64,000 nucleotides of DNA from Tetraselmis striata. Lineage: Eukaryota; Chlorophyta; Chlorodendrophyceae; Chlorodendrales; Chlorodendraceae. Position 1 is the first letter of the stretch. Every line of letters starts with the position of its first letter. The position numbers and the translations under genes are program-made. The notes beneath the pieces were generated by a model. That model saw only the letters and a list, made by a program, of their open reading frames with translations, was not told where the DNA came from and searched no databases. The stretch spans positions 1-64,000 of the forward strand of contig VCJN01001279.1 of the NCBI GenBank assembly GCA_006384855.1, read 5' to 3'. Below, one piece after another: positions 2,891 to 63,899 of the stretch.

Positions 2891-5800
2891 TCAGGATGCC
2901 GGCGCAGGGGCAGCTCCGCCCCGTAGCCAGTCGTCCCACTCCGCCCAGCGCAAGGAGTCGTCCACAGCGGCGGGAGGCCGTCCCAGGGCGGCGCGGATCA
3001 GGTCCAGCTGGCTCGGCGCGCCGGCAAAGTCCTGCGCGCGCCGCTGGTACGCATCGACGCGCACATCCAGCAGCCGGGCGCCGCCCTCCGCGGGGACGTC
3101 GAGCAGGCTCGCTTCGCGCCGGCGGCGGTCGGCGCCGGCGACGCCCCCGAAGGCGCCGCAGAGCCGGCGAGCCACGGTCGTCAGCTCCGGCGCGGCCTGC
3201 TGGCGGGCCGGATCCGCCCAAAACGACCCGCTGTCGGCGCCGGTGGCCGCGCCGTCCGCAAAGGCGCCCGTGCGCGAGCGGAACGCACCCAGCTGCCGCA
3301 TCGCGGCGGACGCGGCGGCGTCGTTGCCCGGGAAGAAGCGGGGCAGCACCAGCTCCGACAGCGCGGCCTCCCCCGTCCATAGGCGCTCCGGCCGCAGCGC
3401 CTGCACCGGCTCCGGCTCCAGCATCGGCGCTGGGCCGGGGCTGAGCATCCCGGCGGCCAGCGCAAGCGGGCTGACGAGCGAGGCGTGGTGGCGGGCGTAA
3501 ACAGCTCGCACGGCATCGCCATTGAGTGCGTCGCAGTCGTTGGCGGCCGCGGCGGAGGCGTCCCGGGAGGTGGCGAAGAGAGAGGCGAGGTGATGGAGCG
3601 TAGGCTGGCCGCAGGTGTTGTCCAGCACGCGCAGGGCGTCCAGCGCAGGGGACCCCACGGCCACGGCTCGGTCCAGGTCGCGGCGGGCCACCTCGCTGAA
3701 GATGAGCTCCCGCTTGAGCGCCGCGTGCGTGGTGGCAGCGGGGGCACCGTCGGATGCCAACCTGGGCAGCAGCCCCAGTGGAGGGTGGGCGGGCCGGGGG
3801 GGGGGGGGGGGGGGGGTCTGGGGGTGTCAGCAACTCATAGCAGGCAATACATGAATATTTTATTTATAGCTACAAATCAGATGTCAGCTTAAATCGAATG
3901 CGTCGCCCCATACTACGTGCATATGTCCCCCGCGAACGAGTAAAGATTACTGCTGTTCGGCTCTCCACACATAGATTACGATTACTGCAGGTAGTACTTC
4001 AATACTCAACACCTAGGGCTTAGACTGCTTACCTAAAGGGGGCCCTCTAACTGCCTGCAACTTCACGTACGTAAGGTTCCTCTCTATCCAACACCGCATC
4101 AGCCTTCACTGCAGGGATGCAGAGTATCTACGGATGATGCTGTGCGACAGTATACAGGGCCGATAATCCAACACTGCCAGCAAGAGACTTCACTCAAAAT
4201 TTGTAGACATTCATCGTGATATACAAGCAAATATATAACAAAGCATACTGCCAGCTCATACATACATACATACATAAATATCTTATAAATATATTTTATA
4301 TGTACTGCAGTGAACGAAACAATACACTGTGCCAATAAAGTATGATAATCTGCCCGTACACAGATGGAGCCTATGAGGTAATGTGTGGGACAGCGCCAAA
4401 AGGGCGCTGCATGCGGCAGGGTAGCCTCACCAGTCCTTGAGCGCCCTGCTGACCCACAGCTCCTCCAGCGCATCCCAGTCCCGGAGCAGCGCCTCCGCCA
4501 GCGCAAGCGGGCCCCCAAACGCGGTATCCACCGGCTTGAGGAGCGTGGACAGGCCGTGCGAGGCGGCGAGGGTCCGCGCGCGTGGATGCTGGGCAAGGAA
4601 GGTCGCGAGGCGGAGCGCAAGGCGCAGCGGCGTGGGGAACATGCGCGCCAGGTCGAGCAGCAGCGCCGCCCAGGCATGCGTGGCGCACGGCTGCCCAAAT
4701 AGCGGCTGCTCAGGGAAGCGCGCCTCAAGCGCCGCGAGCGCAGCGGCTGCCGCTGGGCATGGGTCGACAGTGACGACCGTGACACCCTCCGGCCCGCCGA
4801 GCGCCGTCAGCGCGGTGGTGAGCTGCTCCAGCAGCGCAGCGGGGTCCTCTGCCGCCGGCTGCCGCGGCGCCGCCACCACGACGACCGAGCCCAGGCGCGG
4901 CGCGGCGAGCAGCAGCACGCGCACGTCCGGGCTTGCGTCCGTCATCAGCGTCATGCCGGCGCCCGCCGCGATTGCGCCGGCGTGTAGCTTCTTCCGGCTG
5001 TCCGCCACCTCTTGCGTTGCGAGCTCCAGCGCCGCGCCGCCAGGGAGCAGCGCGTCGCGCGCCGGAGGGTCATACTGCTGGTGGGCCACCTGCCACGGGA
5101 CATCCCATGCAGCGGCCGCCACCACTGAGGCCTGGATGGCGAGCACAGGCAGCCATGGAGCGGACAGGCCAGGCCTTCCTGCGCTCTGCACATTGCTTCA
5201 AGAATCGCACTTGGGCTGATTACGTAGCGCTGCTGAACAATGCTCAGCCTTGGGCAGCATCTGGAAACACGCCGGCAATGCCTTGAGGGGGCCGCGCCCG
5301 CAGTGGAGAAGACACTGCAGCAGACACATCTTCGCGCGCAAACCATATGTGGCGCCAGTACGGGCGCTCTTGCACTTTGAGGAAGGCATTTTCAAAGAAC
5401 GTGCCATGCCTTTTCTGGACCATTTCTAGAAGAGAGTACGACGGGAATATGACGAATCTAAGAACGCAATGCCGGCACCCGACGTTGTTCAAAGTGCGTC
5501 GGCACCCGACCGCCTGAGACACCCAGCTACCTGGCACGATGTGATCCCAGTTGTCCGTGAGCGAATAGCAGCCCGAGGTACCCACCTATCCTAGCCTCTA
5601 GATGCCATTCACCGACCATGTACGGCATAGCGCATATACGGCACACCGACCCTCACAGTCCTAACCTGCTAGCACTGCACAGCTGGCGGCTTGCGGGTTT
5701 GGCGCTGCAAAGCGCAATTGGCTCACCGCCGTCAGCGCCTTGACGAGCTCGCGGAAGGCTGGGGTCTCGACAATGTCCACTCGCTGACAGGTTTCCGCCA

Positions 5801-8008
5801 CAAACATCATGATGGCGCGGTCTGCGCTGAGCATGGCTGCTTGATCCGGCGACTTGGGCGGGGTGGCCGCCGCCCGGGCCATCGGCATGGGCGCACTCGC
5901 AGCCGCTGCGTGGGGAGCTGCTTCGGGCTGCTTGTGCCGCGGCCGCTTGGGCTTCCGGCCGGACTGCTGTGCGGCTGCGGCCGCAGCTAGCTGTTCGAAG
6001 GGGTTCGCCGCGGGAGGCGACGCATCCGGTGGGAGTGGCGGCGGGTGGGAATGGCCGCCGGCAGCGATGGACGGGAGATGGACGCGGGGCGGACGGCCCT
6101 GGTGAGTAGCGGCAGGACCCAGTGGCGTTAGCAGTGGGGCGGTGCTCAGAAGCGAAGGATGCCCAATGTTGAGCATGGTATTGACTTCCTGGTTCACGGC
6201 GTACGCTGGATGCGGGCGGCCAATGCAACCGCGACTATGCATGTGGTGTCGCCGACGACTTGGATTAAGGAAGGGGGGGGGGGGGTTACAATAGTTGCTA
6301 ATCGAGTATGATTATTAACGGGCGGGTTCCTGGACTTCCAGGGGGACTCCATACACTCAATGCGAACAGTGGCTTTGAGGGGGAGGGGGTTGAGCCGCTT
6401 TTCACTGTAACTCACACCAATCTAGCTGGGGTGTGCCGCCCGAGTCCACGCATTTTGGGCAACCTGGGGGGGGGGGGGGGGGGGGGGGGAAGGTGCGTAT
6501 TCACCGGTTGCTACCCCCGGCTAGCCAAATGGGAGACTTCGGGCAGATAACCAATTGCAGGTACAGCTGCAACGAATGGATGCGGGCGTCTAGTATCGCG
6601 GACGGGTGGTGCGCGTTGCTGGTTGACAAAATACTCAAGTGGCGTGGATCCTGGTCCTTCCGCCAAGGCGGGCGGGTCTCGTCAGCCTGGCCAGCGTACC
6701 GGGCCCAAGCTAACTGCGATTCGGGTCGCAATAATGTGGGCAGAGATATGGAATTATATGGCGATCATGTGGAAATCGATGTAGTATTAATATCCGGGTG
6801 ACGGCGCAGTAATAAGAACACTGCGAATAAGACGCTGCTCTGCCTGCCAGAGGTCAAATTTCGTACTACGAAACTGCAGCGGAACTACGATGAATGTTCT
6901 TACAGGAGGCTAGCAAGACTTTTTTTGGGGGGCGTATAATACGCTTCGGTTCTTATTGTAGGTGCACCGAAGTCTAGCACCCGCGCAGCCTGCTACAGCA
7001 TGGCGCTCTATGTGCTGCCGGGATGGTACAAACTGTCAGCATCACGGGGAGGGAGTGCGAAATTGACACTGCGGGTGCATGGAGAGCCTTGGCCGTCGAG
7101 CGCAAGCCGGGTGGCTTATAAACCAATATAAGCGTCTGCTGAACGTAGTCATCAATACTTTCAGATTCCCAGGTGCAATTTCTTCATCTTTTCCGCTCCT
7201 CGGACATGCCTGGAGTGTAGGCAGCTGCGGTACTGCATATTTTTTCCTGAAGCATAGTCGCTAACTGTTACGAACAGAGACTGCAGTTTGACATCCGTCT
7301 TGCTGGAGTCTGGTGGCGATGTGATGACAGTGCTTGAACAGTCGCTAAGCATGACATAATAACTCATGACAGCACCCACGACAAGACACGGAAATAAGCA
7401 GTTGAATCAAGAAAAAGCTGCTGTGCGACTACTGCTTCGTACAAGCGTTGATGTACCTTCGTGACCGTAGTAGTTTAGTTTCGATGATGTACTACGCGAG
7501 GCGCAAGTACCATAGGACAGGTACCAGTACCCTGTATACGAGGTACAGCATATCACGCGCCATTATCGCGCGCGCGCCGCAATCGTACGGTAATTCGTAG
7601 CTGCTCGTCGCGGTACGGGTGCTAATCGTCATCGTGCTGTGGATATTATTTATCGTTTTGGCCGATAGCGACTGCTCAGGTACAGCCCGTCACGTTGCGC
7701 ACCTCGGTGGCCGTCGACTTGGCGCCGCGCTTCTTGGTCTCGAGCCGCACGCGATGCAACAGCATCTGCTGAGCCCGCGGGTCCGGATGGGGGCACGGTG
7801 CGACACGGACCTCGCCCTCGCGAATGTGAGTGAGATGGACTCGTATCTTCTGGGAGCCGCCGGTGAAAATCTTGCCGCAAAACTTGCAGCAATAAACGGC
7901 GCTCGTCGGCTTGCGCTCGATCACCCACATGAAGTTCTCCTCCGGGCCCCGAGGCTCAAGCGGCGTACATCCCTCTGGAAGGCCTACGAGCTGCGGTGTG
8001 GAGGCCAT
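2891..8008 (-). CDS. hAT-transposase-like protein (BED finger, DDE-type core), intact reading
   Basis: Four exons on the minus strand, 8008-7684, 6205-5727, 5089-4431 and 3761-2891, have GT-AG junctions and compatible phases and give 777 residues without a stop. Exon 1 carries a BED-type zinc finger (C41-x2-C44 with H58/H61 or C72 after GGSQKIRVHL). Exon 2 is a proline/alanine linker ending in ADRAIMMFVAETC...FRELVKALTA, the N-terminal part of the DUF659/hAT region. Exon 3 gives Y-D-P-P, LMTDASPD (candidate first acid, about D319), VVTVDP (about D377), and CATHAWAALLLDLA (the hAT C-x2-H motif). Exon 4 holds a weak C-terminal dimerisation-like stretch, FWAD...APELTTVARRLC, followed by ADRRRR where typical hAT proteins have an ERxWS-like motif. 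Either a recently active transposase or a domesticated one. Terminal inverted repeats were not found. A 9.3-kb foldback element sits 174 bp upstream of the start codon. Confidence 0.75.
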
Positions 8009-8172
8009 CCCGCTCGTTTGGTTGTGGCGTTGTGCCGATTCAAGGGCAGGCGCTGTCGCTGTCGCAGTCGTTCGCTGCCAATAACGCCGGATATGCCGGC
8101 CGTCGCGCCCCTGCGCTCACACTCCTTGTTGCACGCCGCCTCGCCCGCGCAGCACGCGCCATGGCCTGGAGG

Positions 8173-8181
8173 GTGAGGGCG
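8173..8181. repeat. Candidate 9-bp target-site duplication, left copy
   Basis: GTGAGGGCG here is repeated at 17507-17515, immediately outside the other end of the giant inverted repeat. Nine-base duplications are known for foldback and Mutator-like elements. The first six element bases on each side do not match each other, so the exact edge could differ by a few bases. Confidence 0.5.
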
Positions 8182-8599
8182 AGGCATGGAAAAATGAATA
8201 AACGTGTCTTCTCACTGCCACAGAAGCATTTATTATTAAGCCGGACACTGAACCGCGCGGTGCGCGCCAATGTACCCCGGTCCTCGCTCTCCTTGCGTCC
8301 CTGGCGGGGCGCGTATAACCTAGCGCCACACCCGCACAGCTAGGGCTTACACGCCCAGCCGCGCGGTGCAACGATATCGCGGTACAACGATATATGGTCA
8401 GATGTAGTCATCTAGAGGTTTACAGTACTTAGCAATGTTGTACTGCGCACGATCCCCGCGGTCGGCGCACGGACTGGGGCCTGCCGGCCCGCACCAGCAC
8501 CACGACCTGAGGGATCCGCCCTCGGGCACCGGCACTCTCTGCTTTGCGCTCGCCTCAACCGGCTCGCGCAAGCAGTCTCGACTCTAGCAGTCGAGCAGA

Positions 8600-9869
8600 G
8601 TGTCAGCTTACTCTATGCCGACTCGGACCCGAGCCTCAGCCTCCCGAGACGCTACACCTTCCCCACCCCGCGACAGCAGGATGCCCCCTCGTCCTGTACC
8701 GGAAGACGCCCTAGTCGACGACGCCCCGGGCGGCGCCACTGCGGCATCCATCGCGGAATTGGAGAAACGCCTGACGGCCCAAGCGGAAGCCCTGGAGAAG
8801 CGGCTGGCCGAGCAGTTCGAGGCGGCTACGGCCGCCTTACTCGCTCGACTGGCCCCTCCCGTGCTATCGCCTCCTCCCAAAGGCACCCAGCCAGCCATTC
8901 CCGCGGGCGCGCCTACGCCCGAGGGTGGTGAGCAAGGAGCGCAAGAGCCCCTTCCTGCTGAGCTAGACGCACTCGACACCGAGCTCGAGTACGTCGACTT
9001 CGCCTACTTCGGTCAAGTCCCCCCTTCCGGTCTGGAGCCACCCCCACGCGACGGCGACGAGCCTCGCTTGTGGATTCTGACCGGCGACGACACCGAATTG
9101 GCAAAACGCCTGACGGCCCAAGCAATAGCCCTGGAGAAGCGGCTGGCCGAGCAGTTCGAGGCGGCTACGGCCGCCTTACTCGCTCGACTGGCTCCTCCCC
9201 GTGCTATCGCCTCCTCCCAAAGGCACCCAGCCAGCCATTCCCGCGGGCGCGCCTGCGCCCGAGGGTGGTGAGCAAGGAGCGCAAGAGCCCCTTCCTGCTG
9301 AGCTGGACGCACTCGACACCGAGCTCGAGTACGTCGACTACGCCTACTTCGGTCAAGTCCCCCTTTCCGGTCTGGAGCCACCCCCACGCGACGGCGACGA
9401 GCCTCGCTTGTGGATTCTGACCGACGACACCGCCGCCCGCGGCCTCGCGGAGCAGCGGGGTCTGACAGCGTACGACAAGTACCAGTATCTTCGCTGTTAT
9501 GCTAAGGCCTGCGGCCAATCCCTGGCGGTACGGCCGTCACTGCAGTACAGTGTACAGTACCTGGGCCGCCCGTCCCGCGCACGGCGCCCGCGCCCGGGCT
9601 CTGGAGCGCCCTGGACGGTGTCGATGGCGGCCGAGCCCCACCTTCTTGCCGACCTCTCTCCGGCGCCGGCCTGCCGACCAAGTTTTGGAGCGTCTCCCCG
9701 CTGGAGCCTTCCGCCGCTTGGTCCTTTTCAGCCACTCCCACTGACTGGCTGCGGGACGCCCGCCTGGCGGCGGGCGCCCAGCCGCCCCCCAGTGTCGCGT
9801 GGGCATCGCACAGGTTGCGCAAAGGCGCGGCCTCGGCAGCGAGCTGCTATGCTGCGTTTCTGCTGCTAG
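8600..9869 (+). pseudogene. Gag-like coiled-coil reading frame with internal duplication and frameshift
   Basis: The frame starts at 8600 and encodes a serine/proline-rich N-terminus, a heptad-like coiled coil (EKRLTAQAEALEKRLAEQF), and an acidic segment (LDALDTELEYVDFAYF). A 339-bp block (8756-9094) is repeated almost exactly at 9095-9433. The second copy has one extra C in CTCCTCCCCGTG, which breaks the frame. The downstream frame (9201 on) continues with the same protein and a terminal region RGLAEQRGLTAYDKYQYLR. The position inside a unit bounded by long direct repeats suggests a retroelement Gag-like product, but no zinc knuckle, protease or polymerase is present, so the function is unproven. 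Confidence 0.45.
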
Positions 9870-9954
9870 CTCGTCCCCGTCCGGCCACTACACTTCGCTA
9901 CCTGTGCAAGCCTTTGGCTTTCTTCTCTGGCAAATCGTGCCTCCTTGGGTAAAT

Positions 9955-10250
9955 GGTCAGATGTAGTCATCTAGAGGTTTACAGTACTTAGCAATGTTGT
10001 ACTGCGCACGATCCCCGCGGTCGGCGCACGGACTGGGGCCTGCCGGCCCGCACCAGCACCACGACCTGAGGGATCCGCCCTCGGGCACCGGCACTCTCTG
10101 CTTTGCGCTCGCCTCAACCGGCTCGCGCACCCACCCACCCACAGCCATCTTTCTGCGCTAGGAGACACCCAGGCCAAGCCTGTGGTTCTCGTCTTAGCCT
10201 CCAATGTAAGCGAGCTGACATTCTTTGGCAAATCGTGCCTCCTTGGGTAA
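9955..10250. repeat. Short second unit of the nested insertion
   Basis: The first ~175 bp duplicate 8395-8570 and the last ~27 bp duplicate 9928-9954, with about 95 bp of different sequence between. It looks like an internally deleted or solo version of the preceding unit. The two units are joined head to tail at GGGTAAATGGTCAG. Confidence 0.6.
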
Positions 10251-13200
10251 ATCGTTTTTAACATTTTTAAAATACCTGTACCCAACAGTGACATTTTAGA
10301 GGTAGGAGTTCAAATCCAGAGCAGAAAATAAGGATATCGCACTCGCGTTGATATTCCATTATTTTAAACGGCGACCTCTGCCCTCGGCCGCCCTCTTGTA
10401 GTGCTGCCACCACTCGGCAATTGTCCGCACCATGCTACCGGCGACTACAACAGGCACCAAGGGGTCGCTTCAAGGACGCATCAGACGGTATAGGCGCATA
10501 ACAAAGGTCCCAAAGGGGTCGAATGGTGTGCATAAGATGTTGTTGACGGGCGGTATAATGCTCGGTTGGTGCGGCTCCGCTAGGAGTTGTGACGAATCTC
10601 CAAACCGGAGAGCATGCTTCCCGGACGCGGACTGGTCAGGTTGCACTGTGGCGGAGGTCAAGGGGGCAGGTACGGTAGTATTTTATCACCCACGGTCGTG
10701 CGTACAAGTATATGCCGTTATTAAAATCATCAACCCCATACAATATGGCCCGACGGCACAGTGTTAGTCACGCTATATCGCGTCAACGATAAATCGTTAC
10801 AAATGCGGTAGGTTTCATCACCCACAATCGTTATTACGAGTATGTCACCAACCCGGGCAGAAGGCACGCTATATCGGGTCAACGTGACATCGTTACAAGT
10901 CGTGAACGGCGGACATTATGTCAGGACCATATTAGTAAATATAACGATATATATCGTGTCAACGTGAAATCGTTGCAGGTGCGGTAGTAGTAATTATCTT
11001 ATCACCCATGGTCGTTCATCATACAAGTATGTCGCGTTGTTATCATCAACCCCGGACAATATGTCTCGACCGCACAGTATTAGTCACGCTATATTGTGTC
11101 AACGATAAATCGTTACAAGTGCGGTATAGCTTTTTATTACCCACCATGATCGTTCATACGAGTATGTCACCAATCCGGACAATAGTCAGCACGCTACATC
11201 GGGTCAACGTGACATCGTTACAAGTCGTGAACGCCGGACATTATGTCCCGGGCGACAGTAACGATATGCCGTGTCAACGATAAATCGTTACAGGTGATGT
11301 AGTATTTTATCATCCACGGTCGGTCATACAAGTTAGTATTTGTCGATGTTATCATCAACCCTGGACAGAAAGTCCCGACCGCAAAGCGTTAGTCACGCTA
11401 TATCGTGTCAACGATAAATCGTTACAGATGATGTAGCTTTTAGCACCCACGATCGTCCATACGAGTATGTCACCAACCCGGGCAGTAGTCACGATACATC
11501 GGGTCAACGTGACATCGTTACAAGTCATGAACGCCGGACATGTCCCGACAGTACTAGTAACGATATATCGTGTCAACGATATTTCGTTACAAGGGCGGTA
11601 GTGTATGTTATCACCCGCGATCGTTCATACGAGTATGGCCGTGTTATCGTGCTATCATCAACCCCGGACAGTGTTAGTAACGATATAATGTATCAACGAT
11701 CTGTCGTTACAAGTACAATAGTAAGTTACGTATCACCCACGTCATACAAATATTGCATCATCAACGCCGGACATTGTGTCCCTAGCGCACAACAGTGTAG
11801 GTAACGATGTATTATGTCAACGTTAAATCGATACAAGTGGCATGTTGTATACATGGTGATGGATGGAGGCATCGGCGGCAGCGGAGGAGGAGGCGGCGGA
11901 GGAGGAGGAGGCATGAAGAGGAAGAGGCATCGGCGGGAGGCATCGGCGGCGGCTGCGGATGAGGCGGAGGTAGAGGAGGAGGCGGAGGAGGAGAAGCATG
12001 CCGACGGGAAAAGGGGGGTGTACTACGGATGTGAACAAAAGAAACACATATGGGCATATCCGCATGCACCGTAGCAGTTGATACCAGCATTATTGTAATT
12101 CAGTACCCACCTACTAGCTTTGCAACGATCTGCGTGTCGTAGACTGGTGCGTTAGGTGATAGTTGGGAGGGGGGGGGGGGGGGGGCGAGACGGCATGCCT
12201 CATGTCAGCGCGGAAGTAAGCAGAGTATCAAAGCTGTGTGCACTTATTTACACTGAATGTGCACATACTGGGTCAAATTGTAATCACGTTTTATCGTTGC
12301 AACGAATACTCGTGTAAAGCAGCTGGTGAAAGCCGGAATCTGAATCGGGCGAGTCTAAAACGAGATGGCATTGACACGTGCATGAGTGCAATGTAATAAC
12401 GGCGGTGGGAAATCATCCAGAGCAGGGTTGAGGTAGCATGTAGAGTGACATTGTTGATATCAATCTGAAGATGCAACACATGTAATTCTGCCCGCAGCTC
12501 GCTGTCCGCTCCCCGTTGCCCGCCGCCCACTGCCCGCTGCTTGCTCGCTCACATGCTGCCGTACCTGCGCAAACACGACTAATCGTGTTCACGATTACTC
12601 GTGTTAATCTTGCTTGCCCTAACGCCAGCTTATTTACATCCATGCGCACGATGTGTTGGAATATCACTATTGTGCGCTTGGGGCATCCCGCTTTCAATCC
12701 GGGGCTGATGAAGTTGATGAAAACGCGCAAGTCTTGAAAACCCTAAAACCTACGGTGACAAGAAAACAACTATCTCACATGTTACGGTTTACCCTTGATG
12801 CCACAACTCGTTACTAAGATTGTGTTGCGACGATATACCGTTGCGCCGATGATAGATGGTGTTTATTACGCCGAAAAAATACTGCAACGAATAATCGTGT
12901 GGCACGATACGTCGTCCATACAGGTCATATAAGTTTTGCGCTCTGGCTCCGAAACCATGTAGTTATATTGTGATGCGCCGCGGCGGGGTGTCGCGTGCAT
13001 GCGGCGCAGAAGGGGGAGTTTGACGGACCGGATTGATGGGTGGTGGTGGTGGGGGGGATGGGGGGGTTGTGTGATGAACCGACTCCATGGGAGTACGTTG
13101 GAGTGACATACTCAGGATAGGCGGCGTATCTCGGAAGATGTGCGATAGTATACGCAATGCGCTATCGCGGTGATTACCAAATTTAGGGTGCCCACGCGAA

Positions 13201-13259
13201 ATATATGACATAAGCATTATTGTCTCCCCAAATGGCGAGGGAATCGCAACATTGTATGT

Positions 13260-13990
13260 GCATTGACGACACCTTGCAACCCCGACGCCATTCTGGTAGT
13301 TAATGTATGACGTCGGGTATGGCTGTCAATATATATTTGGTATTGCACACCGTGTGACTATTATCACATGTGCCCGTGTGAAACCGGCGTCATGCATTAT
13401 CTCCCAAAATGGCATAAGAATCGTAACACTGTATGTGCAATGACGACACCTTGCAACCCCCGCGTTATTTTGGGAGATAATGTGTGAAGCCGGGTACGGC
13501 TGTCAATTTATGGTATTACACACCGTGTGATTATTACCACATGTGGCCACGTGAAACCGGCGTCATGCATTATCTCCCAAAATATCCCCGGGGTTGCAAG
13601 GTGTCGTCATTGCACATACAATGCTACTATTCGTCCGCCGTTTTGGGGGATACTGCATGACGTCGGTTTCACGTGGCCACTACATGTGGTATTAGAGACA
13701 CACTGTGTAATACCATAAATTGACAACCGTACATGGCTTCACACATTATCTCCCAAAATAACGCGGGTGTTGCAAGGTGTCGTCATTGCACATACAGTGT
13801 TACGATTCGTACGCCATTTTGGGAGGTAATGCATGACGCCGGTTTCACATGGGCACATGTGGTAATAATCACACAATGTGTAATACCATAAAACGACAGT
13901 GAGCCATACCCGGCGTCATACATTATCTACCAGAATGGCGTCGGGGTTGCAAGGTGTCGTCAATGCACATACAATGTTGCGATTCCCTCG
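13260..13990. repeat. 177-bp repeat units around the inverted-repeat axis
   Basis: The block TTGCAAGGTGTCGTC occurs at about 13594, 13771 and 13948, and in inverted form (ACACCTTGCAA) at about 13272 and 13449, a spacing of 177-178 bp. Each unit also includes an ATTATCTCCCAAAAT-like box and ACACCGTGTGATTATTACCACATG. The axis of the whole element lies near 13612, inside one unit, so the central ~56 bp (13584-13639) are not self-complementary and would form the loop. Confidence 0.7.
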
Positions 13991-15051
13991 CCATTTTGGG
14001 AGACAATAATGCTTATGTCATATATTTCGCGTGGGCACCCTAAATTTGGTAACCACCGCAATAGCGCATTGCGTATACTATCGCACATTTTCCGACATAC
14101 GCCGCCCAACCTGAGTATGTCACTCCAACGTACTCCCCTGAAGCCGGTTCATCACACCCCCACTCCCCCCCCCCCCCCACCCACCCACCCATCAATCCAG
14201 TTCGTCAAGCTCCGCCTTCTGCGCCACATGCACGCGACACCCCGCCGCGGCGCATCACGATAACTACATGGTTTTGGAGCCAGAGCGCAAAACTTATATG
14301 ACCTGTGTGAACGAGTGAACGACGTATCGTTGACACGACTATTCGTTGCAGTATTTTTTCGGCGTAATAAACACCATCTATCATCGGCGCAACGGTATAT
14401 CGTCGCAACACAATCTTAGTAACGATTTGTGGTGTCAACGTTAAATCGTGACATGCAGCATGTGAGATAGTTGTTTTCTTGTCACCGTAGGCTTTAGGGT
14501 TTCCAAGACTTGCGCGTTTTCATCAACCTCATCAGCCCCGGATTGAAAGCGGGATGCCCCAAGCGCACAATAGTGATAGTCCAACACATCGTGCGCATGG
14601 GTGAAAATAGGCTGGCTTTAGGGCAAGCAAGATAAACACGAGTAATCGTGAACACGATTAGTCGTGTTTGCGCAGGTACGGCAGCATGTGAGCGAGAAGG
14701 CAGCGGGCGGCGGGCAACGGGGAGCGGACAGCGAGCTGCGGGCAGAATTACATGTGTTGCATCTTCAGGTGGATATCAACAATGCCACTCTACATGCTAC
14801 CTCAACACTGCTCTGGATGATTTCCCACCGCCGTTATTACATTGCACTAATGCACGTGTCAAATCCATCTCGTTTTAGACTCGCCCGCTTCAGATTCCGG
14901 CTTTCACCAGCTGCTTTACACGAGTATTCGTTGCAACGATGAAACGTGATTACGGTTTGACCCAGTATGTGCACATTCAGTGTAAATAAGTGCACACAGC
15001 TTTGATACTCTGCGTACTTCCGCGCTGACATGAGGCATGCCGTCTCGCCCC

Positions 15052-15084
<33 letters not shown>

Positions 15085-17506
15085 CCGCCCTCCCAACTAT
15101 CACCTAACGCACAAAGCAAGTACACGACACGCAGATCGTTGCAAAGCTAGTAGGTGGGTACTGAATTACAATAATGTTGGTATCAACTGCTACGGTGCAT
15201 GCGAATATGCCCGTATGTGTCTCTTTTGTTCACAGCCGTAGTACACCCCCCTTTTCCCGTCGGCATGCTTCTCCTCCTCCCCCTCTACCTCAGCCTCCTC
15301 CTCTACCTCCGCCTCCTCCGCAGCCGCCGCCGATGCCTCAGATGCCTCCTCCTCCGTCTCCTCCTCCTCCTCCTCCGCTGCCGCCGATGCCTCCATCACC
15401 CTATATACAACATGCCACTTGTATCGATTTAACGTTGACATAATATATCGTTACCTACACTGTTGTGCGCTAGGGACACAATGTCCGGCGTTGATGATCG
15501 ATGCAATATTTGTATGAACGTGGGTGATACGTAACTTACTACCGCACTTGTAACGACAGATCGTTGATACATTATATCGTTACTAACACTGTCCGGGGTT
15601 GATGATAGCACGATAACACGGCCATACTCGTATGAATGATCGCGGGTGATAACATACACTACCGCCCTTGTAACGAAATATCGTTGACACGATATATCGT
15701 TACTAGTACTGTCGGGACATGTCCGGCGTTCATGACTTGTAACGATGTCACGTTGACCCGATGTATCGTGACTACTGCCCGGGTTGGTGACATACTCGTA
15801 TGAACGATCGTGGGTGCTAAAAGCTACATCATCTGTAACGATTTATCGTTGACACGATATAGCGTGACTAACGCTTTGCGGTCGGGACTTTCTGTCCAGA
15901 GTTGATGATAACATCGACATATACTAACTTGTATGACCGACCGTGGATGATAAAATACTACATCACCTTTAACGATTTATCGTTGACACGGCATATCGTT
16001 ACTGTCGCCCGGGACATAATGTCCGGCGTTCACGACTTGTAACGATGTCACGTTGACCCGATATAGCGTGCTGACTATTGTCCGGATTGGTGACATACTC
16101 TTATGAACGATCATGGTGGGTAATAAAAGGCTATACCGCACTTGTAACGATTTATCGTTGACACAATATAGCGTGACTAATACTGTGCGGTCGAGACATA
16201 TTGTCCGGGGTTGATGATAACAACGCGACATACTTGTATGATGAACGACCATGGGTGATAAGATAATTACTACTACCGCACCTGCAACGATTTCACGTTG
16301 ACACGATATATATCGTTATATTTACTAATACGGTCCTGACATAATGTCCGCCGTTCACGACTTGTAACGATGTCACGTTGACCCGATATAGCGTGCCTTC
16401 TGCCCGGGTTGGTGACATACTCGTAATAACGATTGTGGGTGATGAAACCTACCGCATTTGTAACGATTTATCGTTGACGCGATATAGCGTGACTAACACT
16501 GTGCCGTCGGGCCATATTGTCCGGGGTTGATGATTTTAATAACGGCATATACTTGCACGCACGACCGTGGGTGATAAAATACTACCGTACCTGCCCCCTT
16601 GACCTCCGCCACAGTGCAACCTGACCAGTCCGCGTCCGGGAAGCATGCTCTCCGGTTTGGAGATTCGTCACAACTCCTAGCGGAGCCGCACCAACCGAGC
16701 ATTATACCGCCCGCATTGCGAGAGAACTTCACGAATCTGAAATATAACCCACAATGACAAAGTCTTTGTAGCGAAGTGGGCCTCGCGGCCATCGGGATAG
16801 ACACGCAAAAGCCGATGGTCATGAGGCAGCATCCGATCCGATAAGGGCTTCGGGGTGTGAGCCTCATGCCGCTCGCCGGACAAGGGCGGTTCTTGAAGCT
16901 CGTCGGGCGGGGGAGCCTCGCTTGGCTCTCCGCCTCCCGACGGTGACACGACATGTCGCCGGGTGACGCTCGCCAAGAGTGTGCGTGACATAAGATTCGC
17001 CAACAACATCTTATGCACACCATTCGACTTCTTTGGGACCTTTGTTATGCGCCTATACCGTCTGATGCGTCCTTGATGCGACCCCTTGGTGCCTGCTGTA
17101 GTCGCCGGTAGCATGGTGCGGACTATCGCCGAGTGTGGCAGCACTAGAAGAGGGCGGCCGAGGGCAGCAGAGGACGGCCGTTTAAAATAATGGAATATCA
17201 GCGCGAGCGCGATCTTATTTTCTGCTCTGGATTTGAACTCCTACCTCTCGCCCGGCGACCGCGCAAAATGCCAATGTCGCTAAAGGTATTTTATCAAAAA
17301 TATTTGAAACGATATATCGTTGCACCGCGATATCGTTGCACCGCGCGGCTGGGCGGGTAGGACGCTAGGTTATACGCGCCCCGCGAGGGGCGCAAGGAGA
17401 GCGAGGACCGGGGTACATTGGCGCGCACCGCGCGGTTCAGTGTCCAGCTCAATAATAAATGCTTCTGTGGCAGTGAGAAGACACGTTTATTCATATTTCC
17501 GTAAAT
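13640..17506 (-). repeat. Right arm of giant inverted repeat
   Basis: This is the reverse complement of the left arm, without the nested insertion, and it retains about 270 bp (roughly 16717-16990) absent from the left arm. It keeps the empty site for the nested insertion at about 17310. Field repeats with AACGAT/ATCGTT palindromes occupy about 15420-16540. The C-run at 15050-15082 pairs with the G-run near 12170. Confidence 0.8.
16677..17144 (-). CDS. Uncharacterised 155-codon frame in the right arm
   Basis: A 155-codon frame crosses the part unique to the right arm and contains a proline-rich segment and the stretch HDHRLLRVYPDGREAHF. I recognise no family. The left arm, which has lost the middle part, cannot encode it. 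It may be a relic of a protein once carried by the element or a chance frame in GC-rich DNA. Confidence 0.2.
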   Translation of the reverse strand: MLPHSAIVRTMLPATTAGTKGSHQGRIRRYRRITKVPKKSNGVHKMLLANLMSRTLLASVTRRHVVSPSGGGEPSEAPPPDELQEPPLSGERHEAHTPKPLSDRMLPHDHRLLRVYPDGREAHFATKTLSLWVIFQIREVLSQCGRYNARLVRLR

Positions 17507-17515
17507 GTGAGGGCG
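17507..17515. repeat. Candidate 9-bp target-site duplication, right copy
   Basis: GTGAGGGCG matches 8173-8181 at the other edge of the element. Confidence 0.5.
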
Positions 17516-18085
17516 GTAGGGATACTCGTAGCAGCATAAAGCAGCAGTAATCCGGACAAGCGAGTACCGTACCTGTACCTGTACAGGGGCGCCCCGCTAT
17601 CATCTGCCGATGGGGCTGCTGGCGGGACCTAGCAACTGCCGCCGCCCTGCTGTACCCTGAACCCTATTTGTGCTAGAGGCCACTCCTGCTCGTCAGTAGA
17701 TACTCGTCATAGCAAACGTAATTAAAATTCGAGCAATATTTAGGCCGCAGTTCCGATTTAATGTTATGTGAGGTACAAGGTACCGGATTTCCGGAGAAGC
17801 TTAAGGAGGGGGGGGGGAGTTCACTTTGGGGTCGAAATATATTTTCAGTACTTAAGCAGTACTGGGCGGCTGGTGGGCTGAGCTGGGCCACTCACCGCCG
17901 CGCCTTGCGCTTGCTACAACCCTATATATCCATCTAGGCAAACGACGGGGCTGCAATTCAGTCATCCTAACAATTGATGAGGAGGGGTCATAGACTAAAG
18001 TTGTCGCCAAGTTACTTACCTCCTCATCATTTTGGTGTTGGATTTAATTAGTAGGGCCCACACGTGATCCATAGTACTCAACACC
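17516..18085. other. No gene seen
   Basis: Mixed-composition sequence with a short G-run near 17808 and a C-run at about 18097 just beyond it. No splice-supported coding exon or known repeat was recognised. Confidence 0.4.
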
Positions 18086-61111: not shown

Positions 61112-63899
61112 TCAACGCTCCGGGATGGACTCTGGAAAACGCGACGGGTGGCGCGCTCGGAGGTTGGCGTATTCCTTTGAGCGTAGCGTGTCTTGCAGAT
61201 GTCGGCTCGTCCTCGCGAAATCGTGTAGCGCCTCGACACGTCGCAGCGCGCTGTATGGCTCCCAACTGTCATGACTTGAGTCGTAGTTCAGCCAACGCAC
61301 CAGAAAGACGAGGCAGAGTCCTCGCTTGAACAGATCCTCGCGGCGTTCGATAGAGAAATCGAGCACGCGTTCAAAGACGAACTCGTCGACACGGGGCTCC
61401 ACACTGGACGGTATTGTATCGGGCTGTGCATCTGGGTTGACGCACTTGCGCAGTCGACTGATGTGAAACACATTGTGGCAGTCGAACGTTGGTGGCAGGC
61501 GCAGACGATACGCCTAGCTGGAGATCTTGGCTGTGACCGGGTAGGGGCCGATGTAGCGCTGTCGGAACTTGCGCGCCGGCTGGTTGCGTATGAGCAAGTG
61601 GTCCGTTGAGAGCCAGACTTTGTCTCCTTCAACATGATACTCCTCAATGATGAGTTTTCTCAGTTCAGAATCATTGGGTATACATACCTTATCTGCCATG
61701 TAGTAGAGACCACCAGTCTCATCTTGTCGCACACCGTTGGGGGTGCGTCCATGACTGTAGGCAACATCAGTGATGTAGGCAGCTTTGATCTTGTTTATTA
61801 GCTTGCTGTCAATTTGCAAGGCGGACATTGCTGACAAATAGTCCTGCATTTGTTCAAGGTCAGCTTCGACCGGCTGGTTTTCATATTCAGTCACTGCATA
61901 ATGCAAGTCAGGGCGGCGAGAGAGAGCATCAGCCTCATTGTCAGCGCCTTTGCGATATAATATCTGCAACACAGGTTCATTAGTCTGTGGGTTGACTGCC
62001 ATGTATGGTGAAATTTCATGTAACCATAGGGCATGGCGTCTGCCTAGTCCTTCCTGTGTAGGCAAATGCCTCAATGTGGCATGGTCAATTATAACTGTAA
62101 TACGGCGACTGCCTTCCAAGTAGCAGCGCCATTCTTTCAGAGCACATGCCACACCCAAGACCTCTTGGTCATAGGTGGGATAATTTGTTTGTGCAGCCTG
62201 CAATGTCTTTGCATAATAGCTGCAGGGGTGTAAGTGGCCATCAGCAATAGCCTGGAGCAGAAGTGCACCTAAGGCATATTTGCTGGCGTCAGTAGCCACT
62301 ACAAACTCAGCATCTTTGCCGGTGACAGGGCTTGCCAGCACTGGGGACTGGCACAAGGCTTGCTTCAGTTTCACAAATGCAGCTTGGCATTCAACTGTCC
62401 AATGAAATGTTTTATCCTTTCTTGTGAGGGCATATAACGGTGCTGCAATAGCAGAATAATTGCGCACATAGCGTCGGTAAAAATTGCAGAACCCAAGATA
62501 TTGTTGGACATTCTGAACGTTCTTAGGCCTGGGCCAATCCTGAACAGCCTTGATTTTATTAGGCGAGGGTCTTAGGCCAGTGTGTGATACCATATGTCCA
62601 AGGTATTCTAGTTCATTCTTGGCAAACCAGCATTTCTGTAATCGTAGTTTAATGTCATTAGACTCGAGCATAGTAAGAGCTGTGTCCAAATGTTGCAAAT
62701 GTTCCTCAAGCGAGTTGCTAAAAATCAAGACATCATCCAGGTATACAAGTATAAAGGTATGCTTGTGTGGCTGGAGTATAGATGTCATCACGCGTTGAAA
62801 AGAGGAGGGAGCACTGGTGAGTCCAAATGGCATTACTAGCCACTCGAGTTGGCCATAGACAGTTCGGAACGCTGTCTTAGGGGCATCAGATGGATTAATC
62901 CGGAGTTGGTGATAACCTAAGGCGAGATCAACAGCTGAATAGACAATAGCACCAGATAGCATATCAAGTAATGCATCAGCAGGTGGAACAGGAACTCAAC
63001 CTTTTTGGTGTACTTATTCAATTGACGGTAGTCAATGCACATGCGCAGACCGCCATTGGCCTTGCGGGCGAAGAGAACAGGAGCTGCATATGGAGAGAAG
63101 GACTCCTGTATAAACTGTTTCTCAAGAAAAGAATTCAGTTGTGTTCTTAGTTCCTCTAATTCTGCAGGTGATAATCTGTATATTTTTCATGCAGGAACTT
63201 GAGCATCAGGAACAAGAGGGATCTCATGATCAAGACCAGGGCGTAATTGTGGAAGGTTGTCAAGCGGAGAGCATATTGGTTTATGCTTTCGCAATAAGTC
63301 TCTAATCTGAGCGGTATAAGCTGCAGACTGGTCAGTGTCAATTGTATTTATCTCATCATCAATATCGAGCTCATCACTCTCTTTGGTGGCATTGTATTGT
63401 TTAACAATGGCGCAGAAATAAACTGTGTCAGGGTCATGCTTGGCAATCTCTCTGGCCATGGCATGAGCATGAACCATTCTGACATTAGCCTGGCGGGGCT
63501 CTGTTTGGCATTGGACTTTTAGTCCTGTGGAAAATGTCATCAGACCAGATCCCCAATCAACATGTGGGTTGTGTTGTTTCAGGAATTGCATCCCTAAAAC
63601 CAGATTGAAATTATGTTGTAACGGTGTGACTGTGAAGTCAATGGGTATTGTGTAATTGTTGATATTTAATTCAGGGGTGACTTTTTGTGAAGCGAGAATC
63701 ATTCTACCATCAGCAAGAATAACTCTTACTTTGTTTTGAAGTGGTGTAGTTGGTATTTTATTTTCTTTGACATACTTGGTGCTGGCAAAGTTCAAAGTAG
63801 CACCGCTGTCAACCAGTACTGAAGGTGTTATATTAAATTCAGCACATGTGGGATGTAACAGCAATAAGTCATGATCAGACTTGCTGGTAACAAAACATT
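61112..63899 (-). pseudogene. Decayed Ty3/gypsy pol: protease, RT, RNase H, chromodomain tail
   Basis: On the minus strand, 63864-63187 encodes an aspartic protease (VDSGATLNFAS, LVLGMQFL) and the RT entry. It is followed by an in-frame TGA (63187-63189), the fingers region ([10 protein letters not shown]), a frameshift near 62985, and then 62962-61514 with PFGLTSAPSSFQRVM, YLDDVLIFS, GFCNFYRRYV, the RNase H part (ATDASKYALGALL) and ADALSRR. The integrase zinc finger and DDE core are missing: the frame passes from LRKLIIEEYH straight to GDKVWLSTDHLL and RYIGPYPV. A last frame (61471-61112) holds FHISRLRKC and a chromodomain-like segment (FLVRWLNYDSSHDSWEP). A TAA at about 63898 separates it from gag-side sequence. 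The element cannot be autonomous as it stands. Confidence 0.88.

Follow-up and report, generated by a model that had tools for sequence, protein, structure and literature searches.

A window of 64,000 nucleotides from the chlorophyte alga Tetraselmis striata (assembly GCA_006384855.1, contig VCJN01001279.1, positions 1 to 64,000 of the forward strand) carries at 8182-17507 a giant foldback element, which is most probably a non-autonomous DNA transposon mobilised in trans. Alignment of positions 8100-17600 to their own reverse complement revealed a near-complete palindrome running from edge to edge of the element, which bears out the first-pass annotation, made from the sequence alone, of a giant foldback consisting almost wholly of inverted repeat. 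The element belongs to a dispersed family whose members carry two different end motifs and, in six of ten paired copies, an 8-bp target-site duplication; their arms cluster with arms of the same end type and not with the other arm of the same copy.

Architecture of the element

The central block of the palindrome, 10547-16713, matched its own reverse complement at 92.3% over 6274 columns with 214 gap positions, each arm pair being counted twice. Outside it, 10298-10548 paired with 16998-17248 at 92.5%, and the outermost stretches, 8188-8398 and 17309-17500, paired at 86%. Because the alignment score reached 9155 bits and dozens of dispersed copies exist, the palindrome is not a product of chance. 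The arms meet at an axis near 13630 and measure 3.59 kb on the left, once the nested insertion at 8391-10252 is subtracted, and 3.88 kb on the right, in agreement with the 3.6-3.9 kb initially proposed. The ~56-bp centre initially described was not recovered: the alignment passes through the axis with no distinct centre, and the nearest ungapped arms listed lie 3 nt apart (79%). The right boundary was moved from 17506 to 17507, the final G of ...AAATG. Within the arms, the 6-mers AACGAT and ATCGTT each occur 3.55 times per kb in 10253-17290, vs. 0.09 per kb outside the element.

The left arm (G-arm, after the G-type end described below) is broken twice, by the nested 1862-bp insertion and by a loss of ~285 bp at 10547/10548. 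The corresponding stretch of the right arm (C-arm), 16714-16998, was found at about 93-97% in other C-arms of the group of C1025, as the contig of the window is called in the copy labels, and at about 81-88% in most other G-arms compared, as pieces of ~222 bp and ~59 bp, C187 retaining only short pieces. The stretch is therefore ancestral and was lost from the left arm, and an extra insertion into the right arm is ruled out by this occurrence in the C- and G-arms of other copies.

A dispersed family with two end types

The assembly searched comprises 224 Mb in 2903 contigs. A 28-base end pattern, with at most three mismatches, gave 53 genome matches and a 22-base end pattern gave 79, while the reversed-pattern control gave 0 in either case; the genome search recommended by the first-pass annotation thus uncovered a dispersed family. 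Alignment of the ends resolved two types, a G-type consisting of GAGGC followed by ATGGAAAAATGAATAAACG and a C-type consisting of CATTT followed by ACGGAAATATGAATAAACG, and both motifs sit outside the shared inverted repeat. When 56 ends were compared, 24 carried GAGGC or GAGAC, 18 carried CATTT and 13 were degenerate or of other sequence; the remaining one, the GAGGC end of C187, is split by an insert and was placed by hand, raising the G-type to 25. As to whether other copies have different edges, which that annotation named as a refuting condition, 42 of the 56 bear one of the two motifs, one more is the interrupted end, and 13 differ. Among 13 further, more diverged ends, two carried GAGAC, two CATTT and nine neither, and therefore the motifs are steady in the nearer family and blurred in distant relatives. 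On seven contigs with diverged ends (C617, C2683, C2037, C1566, C997, C231, and C1589), a central-module copy was located at a distance of 1.6-3.5 kb from the end, coordinates being compared by eye, which suggests that these relatives are also foldbacks.

The six copies with a target-site duplication measure 6.9, 7.3, 9.1, 9.3, 11.3, and 20.6 kb. The longer ones, C1682 (20.6 kb) among them, appear to owe their length to nested inserts, as judged from hit coordinates, and shorter copies were also found (C210, about 4.0 kb; C1094, about 4.5 kb). C1277 carries two G-type ends, at 10014 and 24856, that are 14.8 kb from each other and point the same way; their flanks are nearly identical, an arrangement resembling a tandem duplication.

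An 8-bp target-site duplication

The window copy is flanked on both sides by the 8-bp duplication TGAGGGCG (Table 1). A candidate duplication of 9 bp (GTGAGGGCG) had initially been noted here; its presence was confirmed and its length was not, since the ninth base belongs to the element. The first G of the right-hand GTGAGGGCG is the element's own final base (...AAATG) and is kept in 18 of 18 CATTT-type ends, and a length of 9 bp was ruled out, as 8 bp fits all six copies. Paired copies were taken as the 10 contigs with one G-type and one C-type end, C187 being counted with its hand-placed end and C765 left out of the duplication count. An 8-bp duplication was present in six of these ten (C1025, C1318, C1682, C388, C1728, and C187; five of nine without C187). 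Those of four copies read GACGGTTG, ATAAATCC, GTCACTAC, and GCCCAGCA; in TGAGGGCG and in CCGCGTGG, the last base of the duplication coincides with the terminal G of GAGGC. Copy-specific 8-bp duplications adjoin fixed element ends.

Inheritance of the arms

Two arm trees were compared, one of 29 arm stretches without one C765 row and one of the 27 left after removal of both C765 rows and C1008, and in both the arms clustered by end type, not by copy. On the 27-stretch tree the end-type label changed three times, vs. a mean of about nine after shuffling, and none of 500 shuffles came down to that number, though near-copies inflate this test. In all ten copies with both arms, the G-arm was nearest to the G-arm of another copy, and the C-arm was likewise nearest to another copy's C-arm in 10 of 10, that of C1487 tying with its own G-arm at 94.9%. 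The approximately unbiased (AU) test rejected sisterhood of a copy's own arms in five of the six copies tried. This grouping by end type therefore indicates that the palindrome is passed on, and transposes, as a single unit.

The AU test also rejected a single clade of all C-arms (p about 7e-61), and the C1025-like and C171/C1728-like subfamilies each have their own split into G- and C-arms; the C end of C171 is degenerate and that of C1728 intact. The separate split of the C171/C1728 group therefore implies that the arms would have undergone one or more rounds of re-equalisation between subfamilies, during which the outermost motifs remained distinct; among our conclusions this one holds the greatest interest and the least certainty.

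Coding capacity and transposase searches

Over the 2.5 kb of arm that corresponds to 14200-16713, eight pairs of stretches were compared and showed 72 indels, of which 19 were multiples of three; the longest stop-to-stop frame per arm stretch spanned 103-189 codons. None of the seven frames of at least 120 codons in the window arms had a Pfam match over the cut-off, so that the initial report of no recognisable transposase holds for the arms; two mirror arm frames gave weak rotavirus-model matches below the cut-off (E 0.044 and 0.15). In the genome, 45 matches to Mutator-like element (MULE) domains were found (124 of 124 candidates scored), together with 150 matches to the hAT dimerisation domain from the 150 of 327 candidates scored. 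Of the 83 ends, which lie on 66 contigs, none had a detected MULE domain closer than 27 kb, and the FLYWCH + MULE transposase of Tm1/Phantom foldbacks was not found near them, no search for FLYWCH being made; the nearest hAT domain among the candidates scored lay 29 kb from an end. The models PF18758 (KDZ) and PF21787 (P-type RNase H) matched nothing, but as their controls were equally silent this is uninformative.

Two candidates for an autonomous partner were considered. The XPG nuclease on C2846 (Pfam E 1.3e-8) was ruled out on two grounds. Its gene is multi-copy, with 59 genome matches, some being pieces of one copy, and the similarity of two other XPG copies to C2846 begins only at 266782, some 300 bp beyond the last foldback similarity; the gene, an XPG N-terminal nuclease, starts at this same point in both, their upstream sequences differing, and it is probably carried by a mobile element. 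The open reading frames (ORFs) of C1199, of no known family, were not supported as a partner either. In its relative C1842, roughly the equivalent position is occupied by sequence of a foldback arm (69% to window 14330-14580), so the C1199 ORFs are probably a nested insert. Searched against plasmids, the C1199 piece matched nothing.

Nested insertion and neighbouring sequence

The nested element is unrelated to the palindrome, and all seven other copies fetched were full length at 99.1-99.8%. It has split direct repeats, of 180 bp at 8391 and 9950 and of 35 bp at 9923 and 10221, which we take to resemble the layout of PAT/TOC1-like DIRS retrotransposons. On C2846, sequence related to the nested element adjoins a frame with a weak tyrosine-recombinase match (Phage_integrase E 0.047, below cut-off). 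To the left of the foldback, minus-strand frames at 2891-8116 look hAT-transposase-like by eye and end about 65 bp from it; a BED-like finger at 7676-8116 gave a weak Pfam match (E 0.12), and the other left-flank frames tried gave none. At 61514-63897, also on the minus strand, lies a pol region like that of a long terminal repeat retrotransposon, with reverse transcriptase, RNase H, and aspartyl protease domains.

Table 1. Coordinates of the foldback element and its parts in the window.
Feature	Position	Strand	Basis
Whole foldback element, including one nested insertion	8182..17507	.	Self-alignment, end comparison, duplications
Left copy of the 8-bp target-site duplication, TGAGGGCG	8174..8181	+	Matches 17508-17515
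G-type end, GAGGC + ATGGAAAAATGAATAAACGTGTCTTCTCAC	8181..8215	+	First G coincides with the duplication's final base
Outer left (G-type) arm	8182..8390	+	Pairs with 17309-17500 at 86%
Nested 1862-bp insertion	8391..10252	+	Other copies full length
Inner left (G-type) arm	10253..13630	+	Self-alignment
Site of the ~285-bp loss in the left arm (right arm keeps 16714-16998)	10547..10548	.	Comparison with other arms
Left-arm array of ~40-56-nt AACGAT/ATCGTT sub-repeats	10666..11846	+	Repeat families D1, D2; motif density
Central module across the axis, ~170-nt repeats	13040..14185	.	Relatives at 70-98% among the 40 of 55 candidates that were scored
Right (C-type) arm, 3.88 kb	13631..17507	-	Self-alignment
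Right-arm sub-repeat array, mirror of 10666-11846	15405..16594	-	Repeat analysis
C-type end, CATTT + ACGGAAATATGAATAAACGTGTCTTCTCAC	17473..17507	-	End comparison
Right copy of the 8-bp target-site duplication, TGAGGGCG	17508..17515	+	Matches 8174-8181

Interpretation

The palindrome, its dispersed copies with paired ends and 8-bp duplications, the inherited identity of the arms and the absence of a detected coding signal in them together argue, at a probability of roughly 0.87, for a foldback DNA transposon that is non-autonomous and would be moved in trans by a cut-and-paste transposase. The two long arms would end in a shared terminal inverted repeat (TIR) capped by GAGGC on one side and CATTT on the other; a transposase encoded elsewhere would be supplied in trans, bind these ends and perhaps also the AACGAT/ATCGTT sub-repeats in the arms, and excise and reinsert the element with an 8-bp staggered cut. 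Several observations weigh against this interpretation. No matching duplication was found in four of the ten paired copies (C1693, C210, C871, and C777), nor, by eye, in C1701, C171, C1094, and C1487, where in each case one of the two ends is degenerate; no transposase-bearing relative with GAGGC/CATTT-type ends was found; and for the window copy itself the AU test does not reject sisterhood of its own arms (p 0.108).

The first-pass annotation named foldback and Mutator-like elements as the nearest classes. Long inverted arms forming most of the element, TIRs with internal tandem sub-repeats and dispersed copies with target duplications place it among the foldbacks; the 8-bp duplication and the lack of a detected MULE domain within 27 kb do not favour the Mutator-like assignment. 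As to the superfamily supplying the transposase, the end layout points to a Tm1-like Mutator element, and a duplication of this length would suit hAT or P equally well. A Mutator-like foldback of Phantom/Tm1 type, moved by a MULE transposase, is a real possibility, which we would put somewhat short of even. MULE target duplications are about 9 bp long (8-11), and the readable ones here, at 8 bp, fall within that range but not at the usual length. MULE domains exist in the genome, but none was detected close to an end, and a coding member may lie elsewhere or outside the assembly. The layout of Tm1, a Mutator/Foldback family of root-knot nematodes, is similar: its account in PMC3169594 describes two different 7-bp end motifs (A1 and A2) outside the inverted repeat, sub-repeated foldback TIRs with a mean identity within the element of 93.15%, 8-10-bp duplications and non-coding members. 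Asymmetric motifs outside the inverted repeat, a Tm1/Phantom feature, are thus present here, but at 5 bp they differ from those of Tm1 in sequence and length; Tm1 duplications are mostly 9 bp instead of 8, and Tm1 has a member with a MULE-type transposase, whereas no coding member was found here (PMC3169594).

More tentatively, the transposase could come from another superfamily leaving about 8 bp, be it hAT, P/Galileo-like, KDZ or a less known type. The hAT ends usually start with CAG or TAG, which the ends of this element do not; an 8-bp duplication is found in hAT as well and the dimerisation domain has 150 matches in the genome, but the nearest detected one is 29 kb from an end. Galileo, a foldback of the P superfamily in Drosophila, includes a 9,021-bp copy consisting of TIRs alone, with arms of 4.2 and 4.7 kb, tandem sub-repeats, a nested transposable element and no transposase (PMC4168063), so that arms of the size seen here, initially called unusual for an algal genome, have a published counterpart. 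Its duplications are of 7-8 bp and are exchanged between copies (PMC4168063, PMC2775673). It differs in having a known P-type transposase and a known target preference, the search for P-type domains here giving 0 matches with a silent control, and in that the cited account describes only three copies with such extended TIRs (PMC4168063).

An assembly or chimeric-read artefact is a very improbable source of the palindrome. At C765:27168-35525 the palindrome extends ~540 bp through both element flanks, with 164 gap openings and 138 mismatches, and is probably a chimeric palindromic read, which suggests that artefacts do occur in this assembly. Moreover, four of 390 end pairs from different contigs have a common 8-bp duplication (C1693-C626, C871-C1693, C2846-C1098, and C1499-C1728), vs. 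a chance expectation of ~0.012 (390 x 2 / 65536, equal base frequencies). The last pair matches because C1499 repeats the C1728 flank, and the other three are independent; a 7-bp match also joins C1975 to C871 and C777, whose flank is common. Halves of single insertions therefore sit on different contigs, through either real exchange between copies or misjoins by the assembler through the palindromes, which give the same pattern; exchanged duplications are the signature reported for a Galileo-made inversion (PMC2775673). The window copy, however, has non-palindromic flanks, differing ends (GAGGC/CATTT), an arm divergence of ~7.7% including gaps and the duplication on both sides, and six copies are validated by an 8-bp duplication at both flanks. 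Spread by segmental duplication or satellite-like repeats instead of transposition would account for the flanks common to C871/C777 (right), to C1728/C1499 (G side) and to the two C1277 ends, but is hardly credible, as most flanks differ and the duplications adjoining the fixed ends are copy-specific.

For the non-autonomous foldback transposon that we favour, the closest precedents are Tm1, for its two end motifs, and Galileo, for its 9.0-kb TIR-only copy. Tetris of Drosophila virilis is described as a non-autonomous foldback with no conserved ORFs, no known autonomous partner and 8-10-bp duplications; it differs in its host and its satellite-forming history, and is likened here by description, not by sequence (PMC4079207). 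FARE of Arabidopsis, a plant foldback as cited in PMC3169594, differs in containing a MULE-domain transposase, as described there. In these accounts each main feature has a precedent, the asymmetric ends in Tm1, the TIR-only copy in Galileo and the partnerless foldback in Tetris. What appears to be new, along with the sequence family, is that its common form is a ~7-kb palindrome, not a rare long-armed copy. No algal foldback family was named in the titles or abstract openings of the open-access literature searched.

It is conceivable, although we think it unlikely, that this lineage has the full-length palindrome as its stable inherited form, its arms being re-equalised occasionally while GAGGC and CATTT stay distinct in both subfamilies. 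If this were true, mobilisation, by a transposase that has still to be found, would depend on the polarity of the two ends. Foldbacks are hard to assemble and so are probably under-reported. A family with exact ends, a defined duplication length and many copies makes the missing transposase searchable by its ends, and serves as a test case for the persistence of long palindromes and for the question whether they cause rearrangements.

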